Shown: one piece after another, positions 2,171 through 12,117 of the stretch
Layout: the number at the start of each line of letters is the position of its first letter
How positions within the stretch are numbered: the stretch's first letter is position 1
Notes under the pieces: generated by a model
Seen by the model: only the letters and a program-made list of their open reading frames with translations
The model's database searches: none
Told to the model about the DNA's origin: nothing
Source: Actinomycetota bacterium
GTDB taxonomy: Bacteria; Actinomycetota; Aquicultoria; Aquicultorales; Aquicultoraceae
Assembly: GCA_018333515.1 (NCBI GenBank)
Contig: JAGXSZ010000018.1
Coordinates: 1 to 34,818 of the forward strand
DNA length: 34,818 nt
Reading direction: 5' to 3'
Program-made: the position numbers and the translations under genes

Positions 2171-4384
2171 ATGTGGGTGAAAGGAAGAGTTAAGACGAGG
2201 GTCGCTCGCTCGATAATCGCGTCCCTTATACTCGTTCTTGTCATGACTTTATTTCTGCCGGGCGGTGTTTTCGCCGCCGTCAAGAAGCATTGGGGCGGCG
2301 GCGTTCGAGTCGCCGAGAACGCGGGAACGCCCTGGGAGATGACTCAGCTCATCCCGGACAAGGACGGCAACCTTTTTGTCGTGTGGCTGGAGCGCAGGAA
2401 GGCCGAGGTCAAGCTGTTTGCTCAAAAACTAGGACCGGATGGACGTTTGCTCTGGGACAGGCCGGTACTAGTTATTGGCGGAACCTATTTTAATTACGGA
2501 TATCCGCCGGTCTGTCTTTCGGGAGACTCGCTAATCGTAACTTGGACAGACAATCGCAACCGCAGAAAACCGGATGTATATGCGCAGAAAATCGACGCCG
2601 GCGGCAACAAAAAATGGGGGGACATGGGCGCGACCGTCTATGTCGGCGCTGGCGCTCAGAGCATCAGATCGACAGTGTCGGATGAGGAAGGCGGCGCGAT
2701 TATTGTCTGGCGCGATGATGAGCGCCCCGGCTTTTATATGCAGCGGATGAGTTCGGGCGGCACCCGGATGTGGAGAGAGGAGGGCGTTTCCGTCAACGAG
2801 GCACTCGGCATAGAGCAGCTGGAAAACGTATCTTACTACGGCTACGACCCGACGGGGGAGTCGGTAAACATGGTATCCGACGGTGCGGGCGGGCTATATT
2901 TCAGCTGGAACGACCTGGCCGGCCATGAATACGGTTACTACGGTATGCCCGGTCCGAACCAGCGGATGAAAGACGGCCATATCTTTGTGCGGCGGCTCAA
3001 CAGACAGGGGTCTATGGTGTGGCCCTCTAAGTTGAGCATCGATGTCAAGGGGTTGCCTGCGGAACCCTGGTTCGGCCAGCTCCAGGTCGCCGATGATAAC
3101 TCGGCGATGTTAACCTGGACACAACCGAAAGGCATGCCTTACGTCGAGAGAAAGGAAGGTCCGGGCGGCTTCGGCTATTTCCCGAATCCGAACGTAAATT
3201 TCTTCGCGACAAAGGTCACCCCCGACGGAAAGGTCGTCTGGGACCACGGCAAGCCATTGATTTCCAAGGATGGCGACACCGGCTACTATGATCCCGGAAT
3301 GGTGACGGCCGTAGAGGGAGGGCTTCTTTATACCTGGCCGAAGATGCGTTTCGAGGAGCGGACCGACAAGATAATCGGCCCGAGGGGTGAAGTGGTCGAC
3401 ACTGTTATCAACAACGTTCCTATCCCGATCGGCATCGACCTGACGCTTATCGACGCTACAGGGAAAGTCGCCTGGAAAAAGACGATAGCCTCGAAAAACG
3501 CGTACCAGTATCCCGTCGCCGACAAGGCCGGAGGGTTTTTCTTAATCTCAAACTCATATACGGATTTCGGGCCGTTTCCGGCGGAGACGATGTCTGTGCA
3601 GCGATACGATTTTCAAGGAAAAGCGCTCTGGGGTCAAAACGGTGTCGTTCTCAAAGGCGGACAGATATTGACGGGAATCGGATTTGTGCCGGATGAAAAA
3701 GGCGGCCTTTTTTACGGCTGGCGGCTGATCAAGCAGACCAAGCCGCCCGTAGAGCCTGTTAAGTTTGGCTACTACGGGCCGCATCCGCCCGAGGAAGACG
3801 CGGAATCCGACATCTACGTCCAGCATATCGTCGATGACGGCAGCGGTTGGTCGGATATAGCTGTCGAAGAATGGCCTTTCCCATATGTCGATGGATTGGT
3901 CAAGCTGGAGGCCGTCCGAGGATATGCGGAAGGTGATTTCAAGCCGGACGCTCATATTACCAGGGCGGAGTTTGCCAAGATGGCGGTTACCGTGCTCGGT
4001 ATCGGCTCTGAGAGTACCGCCACGGCCGCCGGTAAGGCCAAATCGACCGATATCGCCGGCCACTGGTCGGAGCAGCATATGGTCAAAGCGACCGCGTCGG
4101 GAATCCTCAAGGGATATCCGAACGGCGCATTTAAGCCCGATGCCAAGATAACTCGCGCCGAGGCCGCCACTATTATTTACCGCGCTAAGGATATGAAGAC
4201 CATGGCCGCGGCGCAGGCGTTTCCAGATGTGCCCATTGGTCACTGGGCATTCCAGGGTATCGCCGGCGCTAGAAAGCTCGGCATAATCGAAGGCTATCCC
4301 AACGGCGAATTCAGGCCCGAGACCTATGCGACGCGGGCGGAAGCCGCAAAGATGATATTTAATCTGGTAAAAATGGGGCAATAG
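2171..4384 (+). CDS. Secreted surface protein with three C-terminal SLH domains
   Basis: This 737-residue protein has a signal peptide (basic residues, then a hydrophobic run at about 14-33 ending GGVFA-A). Its large middle region has recurring blocks of the form VxWxDxR...DVYAQKID..G...W. They recur near residues 70-110, 120-150 and 170-195, then more loosely to about 520, and resemble the blades of a beta-propeller. The last 180 residues hold three SLH domains (about 560-608, 624-670 and 684-731) with ITRAE, ITRAE and ATRAE motifs. SLH domains bind pyruvylated or similar secondary wall polymers, so the protein is probably held at the cell surface. The ligand of the propeller-like part is unknown. 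The ATG has a purine-rich SD (AGGGAAGGGAG) upstream. The gene stands alone and ends in a good terminator. Confidence 0.9.
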   Translation: MWVKGRVKTRVARSIIASLILVLVMTLFLPGGVFAAVKKHWGGGVRVAENAGTPWEMTQLIPDKDGNLFVVWLERRKAEVKLFAQKLGPDGRLLWDRPVLVIGGTYFNYGYPPVCLSGDSLIVTWTDNRNRRKPDVYAQKIDAGGNKKWGDMGATVYVGAGAQSIRSTVSDEEGGAIIVWRDDERPGFYMQRMSSGGTRMWREEGVSVNEALGIEQLENVSYYGYDPTGESVNMVSDGAGGLYFSWNDLAGHEYGYYGMPGPNQRMKDGHIFVRRLNRQGSMVWPSKLSIDVKGLPAEPWFGQLQVADDNSAMLTWTQPKGMPYVERKEGPGGFGYFPNPNVNFFATKVTPDGKVVWDHGKPLISKDGDTGYYDPGMVTAVEGGLLYTWPKMRFEERTDKIIGPRGEVVDTVINNVPIPIGIDLTLIDATGKVAWKKTIASKNAYQYPVADKAGGFFLISNSYTDFGPFPAETMSVQRYDFQGKALWGQNGVVLKGGQILTGIGFVPDEKGGLFYGWRLIKQTKPPVEPVKFGYYGPHPPEEDAESDIYVQHIVDDGSGWSDIAVEEWPFPYVDGLVKLEAVRGYAEGDFKPDAHITRAEFAKMAVTVLGIGSESTATAAGKAKSTDIAGHWSEQHMVKATASGILKGYPNGAFKPDAKITRAEAATIIYRAKDMKTMAAAQAFPDVPIGHWAFQGIAGARKLGIIEGYPNGEFRPETYATRAEAAKMIFNLVKMGQ

Positions 4385-4424
4385 CGACGCCGCGACAAAG
4401 TAGTTAAGCTCTTGTAATAAATCG

Positions 4425-4455
4425 ACGGGGTGGGCTTGTGCGCCCATCCCGTTTT
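4425..4455 (+). terminator. Rho-independent terminator of the SLH protein gene
   Basis: ACGGGGTGGGC (4425-4435) pairs with GCCCATCCCGT (4442-4452) with one G-T wobble. The loop has six bases and TTTT ends the stem side. It lies 40 bases after the stop codon. Confidence 0.8.
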
Positions 4456-5335
4456 GCTATTCCAACATCTCCCACGTTACTCCGGAAGGTATGTGGGCGA
4501 CTCATGAGGTAAAACCGCTCTAAACAGCCGTTCGCTCTGGCGCTAACCGGCGGCTCCAGGGGAGCGAGGGCTTAGATTGTAGCAGTGCATCGTAAAAGAT
4601 ATCACCCTAATGAGGGATATGTAACTTCAAATTAATCGGATATTATCAAATATAGGCGTGTAATAGGCTATTTCTAAGTGCTAGAACGTAACAATAGGTA
4701 CAAACAAGATTTGTATTCTGATGTTGCTGGGTTCTTTGCCTGGACATGATAAGCTTGCTACCAGGTAATATGTCTGTAATTGAAATAGGGCTAGGCGCGA
4801 GGAAGGTTCCGCAACACCCAATATTACGGGAAACGGTCGTATTTAAACTGTGAACGGCATTGTGTGTGATACGTGCTTAAGCAGTTCTTAATACTAGCGA
4901 TAAAATACCGGCAAATGTGATAACCAACCGCTAATCACCGTAAATGTACCGTTTATCTACCAATTCGACCGTTTACCAAAATCTTATTACAATTCCTTAA
5001 TTAGCAGGTAAACTTTGTGTGACGCTACACAACGGGAGTATTATATGGTCTTTTCGGAGCCATATGGCAAAGTAGGTATCGAAAGGTAAACGGTTAGAAG
5101 CGCCTTAGGGCTTGCGACTATATGTGGTGACCATGTACAAGTTGCCGAAAACAGGCAAAATGAACCGTGAACCGTTAAAAAACTACCGATAGCATCAGGT
5201 GCGGCAACTCGAACGTGTTCTTAAAGCTTAAGGTCAGGCTGGTGAGAACTCTAAGGCCCGGTCTTTGATGGTGTTACAAAGTATTTAAGAGAAGCCTCAA
5301 GTTAGCAAGTTCGGCGAAGATGGTTTGGAGGGCGC
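4456..5335. other. 880-bp AT-rich intergenic region without a convincing gene
   Basis: No frame here has both a start with an SD and protein-like composition. The DNA is clearly richer in A and T than its neighbours from about 4580 onward. The left end (4510-4570) can form GC-rich pairings, such as CGCTC near 4533 with GAGCG near 4562. The middle and right parts are rich in the core ACCG in both orientations, including a phased set at 4907-4971 and the inverted pair ACCGTTTACC (4968-4977) and GGTAAACGGT (5085-5094). I could not match it to a riboswitch class. It probably holds the regulatory region of the acetate cluster that follows. Confidence 0.6.
4907..4971. repeat. Helically phased ACCG repeat array, putative operator
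   Basis: ACCG occurs in the same orientation at 4907, 4927, 4937, 4948 and 4968, giving spacings of 20, 10, 11 and 20 bases, whole turns of the helix. The downstream bases are similar in each copy (AAAT, TAAT, TAAAT, TTTAT, TTTAC). More ACCG cores follow at 5164, 5171 and 5185, with inverted copies at 4833 and 5091. No protein is known for it from the sequence. Confidence 0.45.
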
Positions 5336-7237
5336 TTGATACTCAGTGATGTCGTGGAATTCCTGGAGAAAGTACCTCCGTTTCAGTTTCTAAAAAAGGG
5401 CACGTTGCGGATGATAGCCGGCAAAGTGTCGATGGAGTATTATCCAAAGGGAACCGAGATACTAACCCAGTCCGGACCGCCAAGCGAGCATCTTTATATC
5501 GTGCAAAAAGGCGGGGTCAAGATTTTTGTTCGGTCCGGCACCGATGAAATAATCATCGACTACAGGAACGAAGGGGACAGCTTCGGTTTCGTATCGTTAT
5601 ACAGCGGCGATAAATCGAGAACGAGTGTAGTCGCCGCCGATGACACGATTTGCTACCTCATCGACAAAGAGACCTTCTTGAGGTTGCACGACTCTTACCC
5701 GGCCTTCGCGGAGTATTTCCTCCGCTCATATCTTGGGAAGTACGTAGACACCACCTTCCGCGAACTTTACGACAAAGGTTTCTTATACAGGTCGGGGAAT
5801 ACCCTGCCGTTCACGACGCCGGTGGGCGACATCGCCACCCAGCGGCTCATAACGGCGTCTCCCGAAAAAAGTATCCGGGCGGCCGCCCGGTTGATGGCGG
5901 AACGTAAAATCAGCTCGCTTGTCGTCATCGACGAAGCGCGCAGACCTTTGGGAATCGTGACCGACCGGGATTTGCGAGAGAAGGTAGTCGCGACGGGTGC
6001 GAGCGTTACGGGTCCTTTGCGTGACATAATGACGACTTCATTGGTGACCATAGAGGTAGGCGAATTCTGCTTTGAGGCTCTTCTCAAGATGATTCGCCAC
6101 GGCATTCACCACCTACTGGTGATGGACAAAGACGTCTTAAAAGGCATAGTCACAAACCATGACCTCATGATGCTCCAGGGCCTTTCACCGATTACCATCG
6201 CGCGCGAGATAGAGAGCCGGCAGAATATCGAGTGCCTCATACCGATATCGTCCGAGATATCGAGCATGGTCGGCCTCTTGCTGAAAGAGGGCACGAAAGC
6301 AAGTAACATCTCGCGCATCATAACCGAACTCAACGAGCGGCTGCTCCAGAGGATTATCGAGATAGACCTAAGCGAGCACGGGCCGCCGCCGGTACCGTTT
6401 TGTTGGATTGTCTTCGGAAGTGAGGGCCGGAAAGAGCAGACCTTCAAGACCGACCAGGATAACGCCTTGATCTATGCCGACCCCGAGACTCCCGAGATGG
6501 AGAAAGAGGCGGCCGAGTATTTTCATGAATTCGCGGTTCGCATAAATGACGCACTGGTAAAGTGCGGTTTCCCGAAATGTCCCGCCGATTATATGGCCGG
6601 CAACCCCAAGTGGAGCCGGCCACTGAAGGTCTGGAAACGCAATTTCACCGAATGGATAACCTCCTCGACCCCTGAATCGATTTTGCTCTCGGTCATATTC
6701 TTCGATTTCAGGCCGGTCTATGGGGATTTGGACCTCGGTAAGATGTTGAGGCGCCACTTGAACCAAAAGCTCGAGCAGGAGCGCTTCTTCTTGGCGCGCA
6801 TGGCGGCTACAATCGTCGACAATCGTCCGCCGCTCGGCTTTTTCAAGACGTTTGTCGTGGAAAAAAGCGGTGAGCATAAGGACCAGTTGAACTTGAAGAT
6901 AAGCGCGCTGGCGCTAATAGTCGATATAGTGAGGCTCTTCAGTCTCGAGCGGGGCGTTAGTGAGACCTCGACGCTCGAGCGTATCGAGGCGCTCAAGGGA
7001 CAGCATGGTTTGATAGATGAGTTCGGGCTAGAGCTTGAGCAGTCTTTCGAGTTTATAATGCTGTTACGGGTTTTACGCCAGTTCGAGCAGATAGAACTCG
7101 GTTCCGAGCCGGACAATTTCATCAATCCCAACGAACTCAACACGCTCGAGAAGCAGACGTTGAAAGAGATATTTCAGCTGATATCGAGAGTCCAAGACCT
7201 AATAGACCAGCGCTATTCCTTGGGGACGGTGTCGTAA
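5336..7237 (+). CDS. cNMP-binding, CBS-pair, DUF294 nucleotidyltransferase-like signalling protein
   Basis: The 633-residue cytoplasmic protein has four parts. A cyclic-nucleotide-binding fold covers about 15-130 (FQFLKKGTL...GTEILTQSG...LYIVQKGGVKI). A CBS pair covers about 165-285 (VTDRDL and VTNHDL). A GlnD-like nucleotidyltransferase domain (DUF294) covers about 320-450 with G361-S362 and the metal-binding pair D373/D375. A C-terminal DUF294_C helical domain follows. Such proteins are thought to sense nucleotides and modify or regulate a partner, but no target is proven. The TTG start has GGAGG four bases upstream, and an overlapping ATG at 5319 is out of frame. The stop overlaps the exonuclease start (TAATG), so the two are coupled. 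The position ahead of yjcH-actP and acs suggests control of acetate uptake. Confidence 0.85.
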   Translation: MILSDVVEFLEKVPPFQFLKKGTLRMIAGKVSMEYYPKGTEILTQSGPPSEHLYIVQKGGVKIFVRSGTDEIIIDYRNEGDSFGFVSLYSGDKSRTSVVAADDTICYLIDKETFLRLHDSYPAFAEYFLRSYLGKYVDTTFRELYDKGFLYRSGNTLPFTTPVGDIATQRLITASPEKSIRAAARLMAERKISSLVVIDEARRPLGIVTDRDLREKVVATGASVTGPLRDIMTTSLVTIEVGEFCFEALLKMIRHGIHHLLVMDKDVLKGIVTNHDLMMLQGLSPITIAREIESRQNIECLIPISSEISSMVGLLLKEGTKASNISRIITELNERLLQRIIEIDLSEHGPPPVPFCWIVFGSEGRKEQTFKTDQDNALIYADPETPEMEKEAAEYFHEFAVRINDALVKCGFPKCPADYMAGNPKWSRPLKVWKRNFTEWITSSTPESILLSVIFFDFRPVYGDLDLGKMLRRHLNQKLEQERFFLARMAATIVDNRPPLGFFKTFVVEKSGEHKDQLNLKISALALIVDIVRLFSLERGVSETSTLERIEALKGQHGLIDEFGLELEQSFEFIMLLRVLRQFEQIELGSEPDNFINPNELNTLEKQTLKEIFQLISRVQDLIDQRYSLGTVS

Positions 7238-7989
7238 TGGGTTTTAGGGATTGGTCTAGAGGCAAAATGTCGGATATCAGCGAGTCGTATAGGCGGAAAT
7301 CGTCAAACTTCGGGGCGATGGAAGCGGCGGTCTTCGGGAGCGAAGACCTCGGCGTTCCAATCGATAAAGCGCGATATGTGGTCATCGATAGCGAGCTGAC
7401 CGGACTGGACGATAAGAAAGACTCGATCGTCTCGCTCGGCGCTATCCGAATGGCGGGAACGCGGATTTTACTCGGCGAGACCTTTGATAGGCTTATCAGT
7501 CCCGAGGCCAAGCTTACGGGTTCGAGCGTCGTGATACATGGGATAACGCCGGGCGAGGTCGCCGAAGAGCCTTCCATAGAGGAGGTCTTGCCGGAGTTTT
7601 TGAGTTTTTGCGGTGACGACATTATGGTCGGCTATATGCCTGCCATAGATTTGACTTTTCTCAATCGTGAGGCTAAGCGGCTCTATGGGGTATCGGTGAA
7701 AAATCCCATTTTAGACGTCTTTGCGCTCGATAAGTGGAGGAGGCAGCGGATTGGCGAGGATAGCTCGGGCCATCCGAGCCTATATGATATCGCCAAGAGT
7801 TTGGATGTGCCTGTAAAAGGGGCTCATAACGCTATAGCGGATGCCTTTATTACAGCGCAGGTCCTACAGCGGCTTCTACCCGCTTTAATAGACTTAGGCA
7901 TAAAGAGCGTGGGGGAGTTACTGGCCGTAAGTAATCCGGCAAAGGGGGGTGATAAGTTCCGTTTTTCGTTCAAGTTCGGCAACTTTTAG
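7237..7989 (+). CDS. DnaQ-like 3'-5' exonuclease (DEDDh family)
   Basis: A stand-alone exonuclease of 250 residues resembling the proofreading domain of DNA polymerase III epsilon. The acidic residues are D51 and E53 (VVIDSELTGLD), an Asp in the second block (YMPAIDLTFLN), and the final HNAIADA block with the H-x4-D pattern of DEDDh enzymes. The first 40 residues form an extra N-terminal arm. Its start ATG overlaps the previous stop (TAATG). Genes like this often sit next to DUF294 proteins and sodium:solute symporters. The true substrate, whether DNA, RNA or a small nucleotide signal, is unknown, and a role in replication is unlikely from this context. Confidence 0.82.
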   Translation: MGFRDWSRGKMSDISESYRRKSSNFGAMEAAVFGSEDLGVPIDKARYVVIDSELTGLDDKKDSIVSLGAIRMAGTRILLGETFDRLISPEAKLTGSSVVIHGITPGEVAEEPSIEEVLPEFLSFCGDDIMVGYMPAIDLTFLNREAKRLYGVSVKNPILDVFALDKWRRQRIGEDSSGHPSLYDIAKSLDVPVKGAHNAIADAFITAQVLQRLLPALIDLGIKSVGELLAVSNPAKGGDKFRFSFKFGNF

Positions 7990-8018
7990 ACTCAACTACA
8001 ACTTAGGGGGTGTTTACA

Positions 8019-8342
8019 TTGGCTGTAACAAGCGAGAAGCCTAAAATGGCTCATCAGAAGTATCTCGATAGCCCGGATTTTCAAAAAATGGTGTCGACGA
8101 GAAACAGCATCGTCGCGATACTGACCGTACTGACATTAATCACCTATTTCGGTTTCATCTTCCTTATGGCATACGGTAAAGAGACGTTGGGCGCAAAAAT
8201 CTCGGAGAACATTACCATCGGGCTGCCGATCGGCGTCGCGGTAATCGTGATTTCCTGGATACTGACGTTCACATACGCGAATTGGGCTAACAGAAAGTAC
8301 GACCAAATGGTCGAAGATATCAAAGGAAAGATCGGAGGCTAA
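8019..8342 (+). CDS. yjcH: DUF485 small membrane protein, partner of acetate symporter
   Basis: The protein has about 107 residues and two membrane helices (about 27-50 and 64-86), with a short N-terminal segment (YLDSPDFQKMVSTRNS) and a charged tail. This is the DUF485/YjcH pattern: a PEFQ-like motif, then YFGFIFLMAYG, then IPLGLG-like IGLPIGVAVIVI. YjcH is encoded with ActP in many bacteria and is thought to assist it. The open frame extends to a GTG at 8010, but that codon sits inside the SD. The TTG at 8019, eight bases after AGGGGG, is the better start. It lies 29 bases after the exonuclease gene and 3 bases before actP, so it belongs to that operon. Confidence 0.85.
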   Translation: MAVTSEKPKMAHQKYLDSPDFQKMVSTRNSIVAILTVLTLITYFGFIFLMAYGKETLGAKISENITIGLPIGVAVIVISWILTFTYANWANRKYDQMVEDIKGKIGG

Positions 8343-8345
8343 CAG

Positions 8346-9911
8346 ATGAATACACAATTCGGGGAACCGAATCCCATAGCAATATTCTTCTTCCTTCTGT
8401 TCGTAGCGGGAACCCTGGGCATTACCTACTGGGCGGCTAAGCGAACGAAGACGACAAAAGATTTTTATTCCGCGGGTCGAAGCATTACCGCGGGCCAGAA
8501 CGGAATGGCTATCGCCGGAGACTATATGAGCGCGGCCTCGTTTCTGGGTATCGCCGGTATGGTCTCGCTTAGCGGTTTTGACGGTCTCATCTATGCAATC
8601 GGCTTTTTGGTAGGTTGGCCGATAGTCATGTTCTTGATTGCCGAGCCGCTGCGGAATCTCGGAAAGTATACATTCTCGGATGTTGTCGCTTACAGGCTTC
8701 GTTCGGGTCCGGTCAAGACAGCGGCCGCGGTTTCGGCTGTGACCGTCGTCGTCATGTACTTGATTCCGCAGATGGTAGGAGCGGGCACGCTTATCAAGCT
8801 GCTCTTGGGTCTCCAGTATGAGGTGGCGGTCGTTCTCGTCGGAACCCTTATGATGGCTTATGTTCTTTTCGGGGGTATGATTTCGACGACTTGGGTTCAG
8901 ATCATCAAGGCCGGACTGCTTCTTTCCGGCTCGACGATTTTGTGTTTTCTAACACTGATGAAGTTCGGTTTTAGTCTCGACGCGTTCTTCGGCGCCGCCG
9001 TCCAAAAAGTCAACACGTTGACCAATACGACCGACGGCTTTAAAATGCTTCAACCGGGCAAGCTGCTGGAGAACCCGATTGGAACAGTATCGCTCGGACT
9101 GGCGCTCATGTTCGGTACCGCCGGTCTGCCGCATATTCTGATGAGGTTTTATACGGTGCCCGATGTTAAGGCCGCGAGGAACTCCGTCAATTACGGTACC
9201 GCATGGATCGGCTACTTCTATATCTTGACATTTATCATGGGCTTCGGCGCCGCCGCGCTCGTCGGCCAGGATGTTATAACAGGCGTCGACGCGAAGGGTA
9301 ATATGGCGGCGCCGCTTCTCGCGCAGGCCATCGGTGGCCCGATATTTCTCGGGTTTATCGCCGCCGTCGCTTTTGCGACGATCCTCGCGGTCGTCGCCGG
9401 ACTGACACTTGCGGGCGCAGCCGCTTTCAGCCACGACTTATATGCCGGCGTCTTCAAGAAAGGCAGATCCACTGAAGAAGAAGAGATGAAGGTAGCTAAA
9501 ATAGCTACGATCGGTTTTGGTATCGTCGCTGTAGTTCTCGGGATGGCCTTCAAGGGTCAAAACGTCGCGTTTATGGTCGGTCTTGCGTTTGCTATCGCGG
9601 CGAGCGCGAACTTCCCGGCGATTCTCATGTCGGTCTTTTGGAAAAAGTTCTCGACGAGCGGCGCGGTCGTCGCCATTTGGTCGGGCCTTCTATCGTCGGT
9701 CATCCTTATCGTTATCGGGCCTACGGTCTGGGTGGATATTCTGGGTAACGCCGCGCCTATCTTTCCGTTGGGCAACCCGGCTATCGTTTCGATGCCGCTG
9801 GCGTTTATCTCGGGCATTGTCGTATCGCTGCTCGCACCCGAGGCGGAAGCACAAGAGAAATATGAGGAGAAGAAGGTCCGCCTTTACATGGGCGTCGGCT
9901 CTGAGCAGTAG
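8346..9911 (+). CDS. actP: Cation/acetate symporter, sodium:solute symporter family
   Basis: A 521-residue polytopic membrane protein with about 13 hydrophobic helices. It takes up acetate or another short monocarboxylate with a cation. Family features include the early [44 protein letters not shown] segment, the [21 protein letters not shown] loop and the central [24 protein letters not shown] segment, all typical of ActP-like SSS proteins. It starts three bases after yjcH with an SD (AAAGATCGGAGG). Pairing with a DUF485 protein and with acetyl-CoA synthetase downstream points to acetate. Pyruvate or propionate uptake cannot be excluded. Confidence 0.9.
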
Positions 9912-10149: not shown

Positions 10150-12117
10150 ATGACGGAAAAGCTAAATGTGGCCGAGGAAACGGTAATGAAGTTTCCTCCG
10201 CCTGCGGAGTTTAGCGCGAATGCTCACATTAAGAGCATGGAAGAGTACGAAGCGATGTACAAGAGGTCTATCGAAGACCCGGACGGTTTTTGGGCCGAGA
10301 TGGCCGAGAAGAACCTTACCTGGTACAAGAAGTGGGACAAGGTACTGGACTACGATTTTCACAAGCCGTACATCAAATGGTTCGAGGGCGGCAAGCTCAA
10401 CGCCTCGTTCAACTGCCTTGACAGACATCTCAACACTGCGAGAAAGAACAAAGCGGCTATCATCTGGGAGGGCGACGGCGGGGAGTCGAAGACCTATACT
10501 TACCAGCAACTTCATCGTGAAGTAAACAGATTCGCCAATGTTCTTAAGAAAAACGGCGTCTCCAAAGGGGATAGGGTGTCACTCTATCTGCCGATGATTC
10601 CCGAACTCGCGATTGCGATGCTCGCATGCGCGAGACTCGGCGCAATCCACAGCATAGTCTTCGGCGGCTTCAGCTCGAACGCACTCCGCGACCGGATTCA
10701 GGATTGCGCATCGTCACTTCTAATAACATGCGATAACGGTATGCGCGGCAGCAGAATCGTCCCGCTCAAAACCAACAGCGATGCCGCGCTCGAAGAATGC
10801 CCGACCGTTAAGACCTGTATCGTGGTCAACAGGGCCGGCGAGTGCGAGATGAAAGAAGGCCGCGACGTATGGTGGCACGAGGAGATGGCCGCAGCCGATA
10901 TCGCAAGCTTCTGCGAGCCGGTCGAGGTCGACGCCGAAGACCCGCTCTTTATTCTTTACACGTCGGGTTCGACCGGCAAGCCGAAAGGCGTTCTCCACAC
11001 CACCGGCGGATACCTGCTCTTCGCGAACATGACCTTTACGAATGTCTTTGATTACAAAGAAGAGGATACGCACTTCTGCACGGCGGATATCGGCTGGGTA
11101 ACCGGTCACAGCTATATCGTATACGGCCCGCTTTCGGCTGGCGCGACCAGCATCATGTTCGAAGGCGTACCGAGCTATCCCGACGCCGGAAGGTTCTGGG
11201 ATATCTGCGATAAGTACCAGGTCAATATCTTCTACACCGCGCCGACCGCTATCCGGGCGCTTATGAAAGAGGGCGACAGCTGGGTCGCGAAACACGACCT
11301 CTCCAGCCTGCGCGTGCTCGGAACGGTCGGCGAGCCTATCAACCCGGCCGCGTTTATGTGGTATTACGAGAAGGTCGGCCACAGCCGTTGCCCGTTGGTC
11401 GATACCTACTGGCAGACAGAGACCGGCGGCCACATCATAACGCCTCTACCGGGGGCTATGACATTGAAACCCGGCTCAGCGACGAGGCCGTTCTTCGGTG
11501 TTGTGCCGAAAGTCATCAAAGAGGACGGCTCACCGGCGGATGTGAATGAAAGCGGGTATCTCGTCATCGAGAAACCATGGCCCGGCATACTGCGCGGCAC
11601 CTACGGCGACCCCGAGAATGCCCGCATCAAAGAGGTCTATTTCAGCCGCTTCCCGGGTGTGTACTTCACCGGAGACGGCGCGCGCGTAGACGAGGACGGC
11701 GATTTCTGGGTGACCGGGCGCATCGACGACGTTATCAACGTCTCGGGTCACAGGATGGGTACCGCCGAGGTCGAGTCGGCGCTGGTAAGCCACCCGACAG
11801 TCGCCGAGGCCGCGGTGGTCGGCTTCCCGCACGACATCAAGGGCGAGGGTATCTACGTCTATGTGACGCTTAAAGACGGCAACAAGCCGTCTCCGGAACT
11901 CCAAAAAGAGCTTGTGCAGCATGTGCGCAAGGTCATCGGACCGATTGCCAGTCCCGATAAATTGCAGTTCACGCCGGGTCTGCCGAAGACCCGAAGCGGC
12001 AAGATCATGAGAAGGATTTTAAGGAAAATCGCGCACAACCAAATCGATGAGTTGGGCGATGTTTCGACGCTGGCCGATCCGTCGGTTGTCGATAGCCTGA
12101 TAAAGGACCGTCTCTAA
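10150..12117 (+). CDS. acs: Acetyl-CoA synthetase (AMP-forming)
   Basis: It converts acetate, ATP and CoA into acetyl-CoA, AMP and pyrophosphate through an acetyl-adenylate. The 655 residues match the family length. Visible motifs are the P-loop-like [11 protein letters not shown] (270-280), the adenine-binding YWQTETGG (420-427), the hinge region [15 protein letters not shown], and the C-terminal SGK motif with catalytic Lys618, the residue that protein acetyltransferases inactivate in homologues. The ATG is preceded by GGGGGAGAGT. The 238-base gap after actP holds a likely promoter. A strong terminator follows the stop. Together with actP this gives high-affinity acetate assimilation. Confidence 0.96.

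Follow-up and report, generated by a model that had tools for sequence, protein, structure and literature searches.

The long gene-free stretch that precedes the acetate cluster of this actinobacterium contains a phased series of ACCG words, which raises the question of which regulator, if any, would read them. The window, i.e. the whole stretch of DNA analyzed (34,818 nucleotides), is contig C18 of a 2.33-Mb genome. In it, the gene for an SLH protein ends at 4384 and is followed by a terminator-like hairpin (4424–4453) and then by the gene-free stretch. The proposed first controlled gene, which has a TTG start and encodes a cNMP-binding/CBS/DUF294 protein, lies on the forward strand at 5336–7237. 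On the same strand, it is followed by genes for an RNase T/DnaQ-type 3′–5′ exonuclease (7237–7989), a DUF485 (YjcH-like) protein (8010–8342), an ActP-like acetate symporter (SSF; 8346–9911) and an acetyl-CoA synthetase (AcsA; 10150–12117). The gap between actP and acs is 238 bp, and acs may have its own promoter. The original prediction described the surroundings of the ACCG words as gene-free and AT-rich, and this was borne out: a gene search of 4454–5335 found none, and the GC content of this region is 43.9%, as compared to 55.2% for the window. No family was matched in an Rfam scan of the window, which excludes a known riboswitch or other known RNA as the reason for the gene-free stretch.

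Plus-strand ACCG words were located at 4907, 4927, 4937, 4948 and 4968, with gaps of 20, 10, 11 and 20, exactly as predicted, and further cores were present in both orientations at 4834 (−), 5091 (−), 5164, 5171, 5185 and 5259 (−), again as claimed. Five phased same-strand ACCG words did not occur in any of 3,000 dinucleotide-preserving shuffles of the stretch, indicating that such periodicity is not common at this base composition. A five-core phased chain of any of the 256 tetramers appeared in approximately 1 in 300 such shuffles, and the pattern is thus unlikely by chance even if the word may be chosen freely. No tetramer of the window other than ACCG (counted with its reverse complement) formed a five-core phased chain.

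The array was then compared with those of two congeners (G001 and G002), a member of another genus (G007) and other relatives. This comparison defined the repeat unit as a 9-mer, approximately ACCGTTTAC, which occurs at 4907, 4927, 4948 and 4968 with gaps of 20, 21 and 20, i.e. in steps of two helical turns. Core 1 (ACCGGCAAA, 4907–4915) is the most degenerate, but its ACCG is kept in G001. Core 2 (ACCGCTAAT, 4927–4935) reads ACCGCTTAA in G001, which is near the core ACCGCTTAC of Escherichia coli btsT. Core 3 (ACCGTTTAT, 4948–4956) is kept in relatives, and the promoter-proximal core 4 (ACCGTTTAC, 4968–4976) is identical in G001 and aligns with ACCGTCGGT in G007. The ACCG at 4937–4940 is not part of a unit and reads ATTG in G001; this word and the 10- and 11-bp steps that it creates are therefore probably incidental. 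The five-core array of the original prediction was accordingly not upheld, because only four of its cores are kept in G001. Likewise, the phasing itself is kept, but the repeat corresponds to two turns (20–21 bp) and not to the predicted 10–11 bp.

G001 (protein 94% identical) retains the four cores with their 20/21/20 gaps, and identity to our genome (G000) is 81% in the cores, 53% in the spacers and 86% over the promoter stretch after the array. In G007 (protein 67% identical), ACCG occurs at 1091, 1112 and 1132 of locus L004, forming three cores at 21/20 approximately 410 bp upstream of the gene, as in the window. In G002 (locus L003), a stretch of approximately 535 bp (about 4715–5249 of the window), which includes the array and the promoter, is missing, yet the acetate cluster and the LytTR gene are present. 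The comparable position of the array in G007 makes a deletion from G002 the simpler reading. No array was found upstream of DUF294 in G005, and no upstream score exceeded 8.7 at 48 DUF294 ortholog loci from beyond the family, whose titles are nearly all those of Nitrospirota or their relatives. The expected conservation in orthologous clusters was thus found in G001 and G007, for both core sequence and spacing, but the array is not general to DUF294–exonuclease–yjcH–actP clusters, because it is absent from G002, G005 and the 48 outside loci. It is a predicted lineage-specific wiring of the acetate cluster into a LytTR regulon.

Arrays of the same class occur before other acetate and C1 genes of the family, all with steps of 20–21 bp, and this recurrence agrees with the predicted control of the cNMP/CBS/DUF294 gene and the acetate cluster. 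In our genome, the cores ACCGTTTAA, AACGCTCGC and ACCGTTCAC lie 20 and 21 bp apart upstream of the formate-THF ligase gene (L121:8853, 8873 and 8894). Triple-core arrays were detected at this position in 9 of the 11 family genomes (G000–G004, G006, G007, G009 and G010); of the remaining two, G008 gave a weak match (E 0.007) and G005 none. The G007 copy lies within sequence that cannot be aligned to the others, indicating that the formate-THF ligase array does not reflect mere block descent. A plain pattern search first revealed the four-core array (20/20/20) that precedes one acetyl-CoA synthetase gene of G005 (acs1, matrix score 33.4), and a second one (acs2) perhaps has an array as well, with a score of 14.3 that is above the 95th percentile of background. 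No array was found upstream of acs in our genome, G001–G004, G006–G008, G011, G012 or G014. Arrays also precede the pyruvate:ferredoxin oxidoreductase gene in G005 and a formate dehydrogenase gene with an in-frame split in G009, each in this single relative. A weaker second array lies upstream of the main formate-THF ligase array (L121, about 8622–8704; G000:C13:74621–74703), and G004 has two similar copies 229 bp apart (L161 −7572/−7343).

Genome-wide matches to the pattern ACCGYTN{14,15}ACCGYT did not exceed those of the reversed control in most genomes, and a pair of cores is therefore too weak a signal by itself; three are needed. Several weak matches were not relied on, namely G000:C28:5326 (beside DUF5674 and DNA polymerase III delta genes), the orthologous intergenic site G000:C13:47960/G001:C16:4235 (with a PEPCK-like gene downstream in G001 only), G007:C3:44195 and a site on G006:C15. 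A core matrix was trained exclusively on the relatives' arrays outside the acetate cluster. It scored the window array at 30.9, as compared to 12.6 for the next-best site in the window and 20.9 for the best site in 4.6 Mb of Markov random sequence. The BtsR site of E. coli btsT scored 22.0, a value reached by none of 20,000 shuffles, and the YpdB site scored −4.7. A full-length profile (R2), from whose training acetate-cluster arrays were likewise left out, detected the G001 array genome-wide (E 0.0016) and the G007 array weakly (E 0.023, four loci searched), but did not report the window array at E values up to 1. The signal common to the arrays lies in the cores and not in the spacers. The matrix, having been checked against other promoters, is usable for finding further targets.

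What kind of protein would read such repeats? LytTR operators consist of direct repeats of 8–11 bp with 11–13-bp spacers, giving a step of about 20–22 bp (PMC11347149, PMC6193735, PMC4847170). The steps of the window array (20/21/20 in our genome and G001, 21/20 in G007) fit this geometry, and its core resembles the published half-sites ACCGCTTAT, ACCACTTAC and, for AlgR, CCGTTCGTC. One of the closest likenesses is the BtsR (YehT) site before E. coli btsT/yjiY, where GCCGCTCAA, ACCGCTTAC and ACCACTCAG follow one another at 20 and 21 bp (oligonucleotide, PMC4847170). The 20/21 triple is common to both systems, and both transporters handle small carboxylates: pyruvate for BtsT and acetate for the symporter of the window. 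Promoters of the HdrRM/BrsRM type carry the 9-mers ACCGCTTAT and ACCACTTAC 12 bp apart (21-bp step), approximately 10 bp before the −35 (PMC6193735), a distance that the weak candidate −35 of the window would also have; however, that type has a repeat pair, a membrane inhibitor and autoregulation, whereas the repeats here number three or four and the regulator belongs to a two-component pair. The CO-responsive regulators RcoM and CoxC share with our system the triplet of direct repeats at two-helical-turn intervals (18–21 bp; PMC11347149) and a link to C1 metabolism, but their core is TTCNNGCA/TTNNNGCN, they are one-component sensors, and CoxC represses. Because LytTR operators have no one common consensus, the assignment to this class is based on the spacing, the gene context and the similarity to the BtsR site.

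A PF04397 search found a single LytTR protein in our genome, which is rated 100% complete, and every one of the 13 genomes searched has one or more. This response regulator (receiver plus LytTR; G000:C13, L121:7829–8575) is encoded next to a LytS-type histidine kinase. The gene order is kinase, LytTR regulator, approximately 670 bp, and formate-THF ligase, followed by genes for an AcsV-like protein, a CooC-like ATPase, FolD and CdhD (the Wood-Ljungdahl operon). The synteny of kinase, LytTR and formate-THF ligase genes holds even in G012, which belongs to another family of the class. The top NCBIfam match of the regulator is BtsR, but its 219.4 bits are below the equivalog cut-off of 246. The system also differs from BtsS/BtsR in its targets, which would be acetate and Wood-Ljungdahl genes, and in its kinase. 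Pfam detected His_kinase, HATPase and a GAF/SpoVT_C-like region in the kinase and no 5TM LytS domain; there was no match to a 5TM/7TM LytS sensor, i.e. to a multi-TM pyruvate receptor, and about two hydrophobic stretches were seen by eye at the N-terminus. Given the GAF-like domain, the signal may be an internal metabolite, although this is a guess. No array was detected upstream of the kinase gene.

Other features were noted near this operon and at a further locus. The region before formate-THF ligase (L121:8760–9040) contains the inverted repeats GTAACAATCTTGCAGTTTTGTTAC and GGTTTGTAG..TGTTACAAACC, and the similar words GTAACAAT and TGTTACAAA occur at about 4690 and 5270 of the window; a second regulator is possibly common to both upstream regions. 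The protein encoded at L121:1665–3473 combines a [FeFe]-hydrogenase large-subunit C-terminal domain, FeS domains and a GGDEF diguanylate cyclase domain, and could be a hydrogen-sensing cyclase. At L197:2060–6229 (−), the Molybdopterin domain of a formate dehydrogenase-like molybdopterin protein is interrupted without a change of frame, giving pieces of 846 and 538 aa. The interruption may be a selenocysteine codon.

After core 4, which ends at 4976, a weak −35/−10 pair is kept in G001. The candidate −35, ATTACA (4986–4991), follows the core by 9–10 bp, in the geometry of PMC6193735, and the putative −10, TAAACT (5009–5014), has TAGAAT at the matching place in G007; both are poor matches. The order of core, 10 bp, hexamer, 17 bp and hexamer is found at several arrays, and the core-to-hexamer spacing fits those of our genome, G001, G007, G005 and the formate-THF ligase sites, with weak hexamers. 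With transcription starting near 5021, the leader would be approximately 315 nt long. The proposed promoters, if correct, would leave both the acetate cluster (5021–5335) and formate-THF ligase (L121:8948–9242) with an untranslated leader of some 300 nt. The location of the array upstream of the −35, together with the fact that most LytTR regulators activate (PMC11347149), suggests activation rather than repression. Farther upstream, a block at 4575–4715 is approximately 90% identical among the three congeners and has the inverted repeat ATATCACCCTAATGAGGGATAT at about 4600–4625; G007 has part of this block, CACCCTAATGAGCGATTTGTAAC, ahead of its own copy of the gene (L004:851). G002 keeps this block though it has no array. 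The block is possibly a second operator or promoter.

Three other explanations of the array were considered. The gaps of 10 and 11 around 4937 fit the boxes of an OmpR/PhoB-type regulator, which would use 10–11-bp direct repeats on all five cores with one dimer per adjacent pair; this is improbable, because G001 has lost the 4937 core and no step other than 20–21 bp is seen in G007 or the remaining arrays of the family. We give about equally little credence to control by another acetate regulator, of the CrbR/ErdR type or acting through a second site, with the ACCG array as a bystander or minor site. CrbS/CrbR (MxtR/ErdR) does control acs and actP (PMC5715377), and the inverted-repeat block is better kept than the array, being present in all three congeners, including the array-less G002, and partly in G007. 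However, CrbR sites are imperfect palindromes such as TTTGACCATAGTCGGGT (PMC5715377), unlike the direct-repeat array when compared by eye, independent copies of the array stand at other acetate and C1 genes, and the block may be a second input and not a replacement.

Least probable of all is a chance cluster kept merely through the close kinship of the congeners. The whole segment is 71% identical between our genome and G001, so some tetramers would persist by descent, but 8 of 10 ACCG cores are kept, against an expectation of 3.2 (binomial P 0.002), three correctly spaced cores occur in G007, from another genus, and the window array is predicted by a matrix trained on other promoters. The original prediction of a regulator binding cooperatively to one face of the DNA is in line with these data: the cores and their spacing are kept, exceed chance, recur at acetate and C1 genes, and match the LytTR class.

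As a whole, this information leads us to propose, with a probability of roughly 85%, that the array is a multi-site operator, with a promoter, for the only LytTR regulator of the genome, controlling acetate uptake together with C1 metabolism. LytTR binding to the array is inferred from sequence comparison. Phosphorylated LytTR dimers would occupy one face of the DNA, on direct repeats of approximately ACCGTTTAC with a step of 20–21 bp, and would bring RNA polymerase to the promoter around 4986–5014, switching on DUF294–exonuclease–yjcH–actP and probably acs as well. Since the same regulator would also act on the Wood-Ljungdahl operon beside its own gene, acetate uptake and activation would be tied to C1 metabolism.

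The recurrence of the arrays points to one small regulon joining acetate uptake to the Wood-Ljungdahl pathway. The kind of operator is known, and the regulon appears to be undescribed so far; a limited full-text literature search for both terms together turned up no description of the Wood-Ljungdahl pathway being under LytTR control. We consider it somewhat better than an even chance that, more broadly, one LytS/LytTR system, conserved next to formate-THF ligase in the family and outside it, acts as a master switch for both acetate and Wood-Ljungdahl metabolism among actinobacteria of the Aquicultor type, with operators moving freely between the promoters of the acetate cluster, acs, pyruvate:ferredoxin oxidoreductase and formate dehydrogenase as gene order changes. 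The proposed LytTR operator would take the logic of BtsR-like operators beyond enterobacterial pyruvate uptake, to the uptake of acetate and the Wood-Ljungdahl pathway, and it provides a specific candidate regulator of acetate and C1 metabolism in a lineage (Candidatus Aquicultor) met here as metagenome assemblies only.
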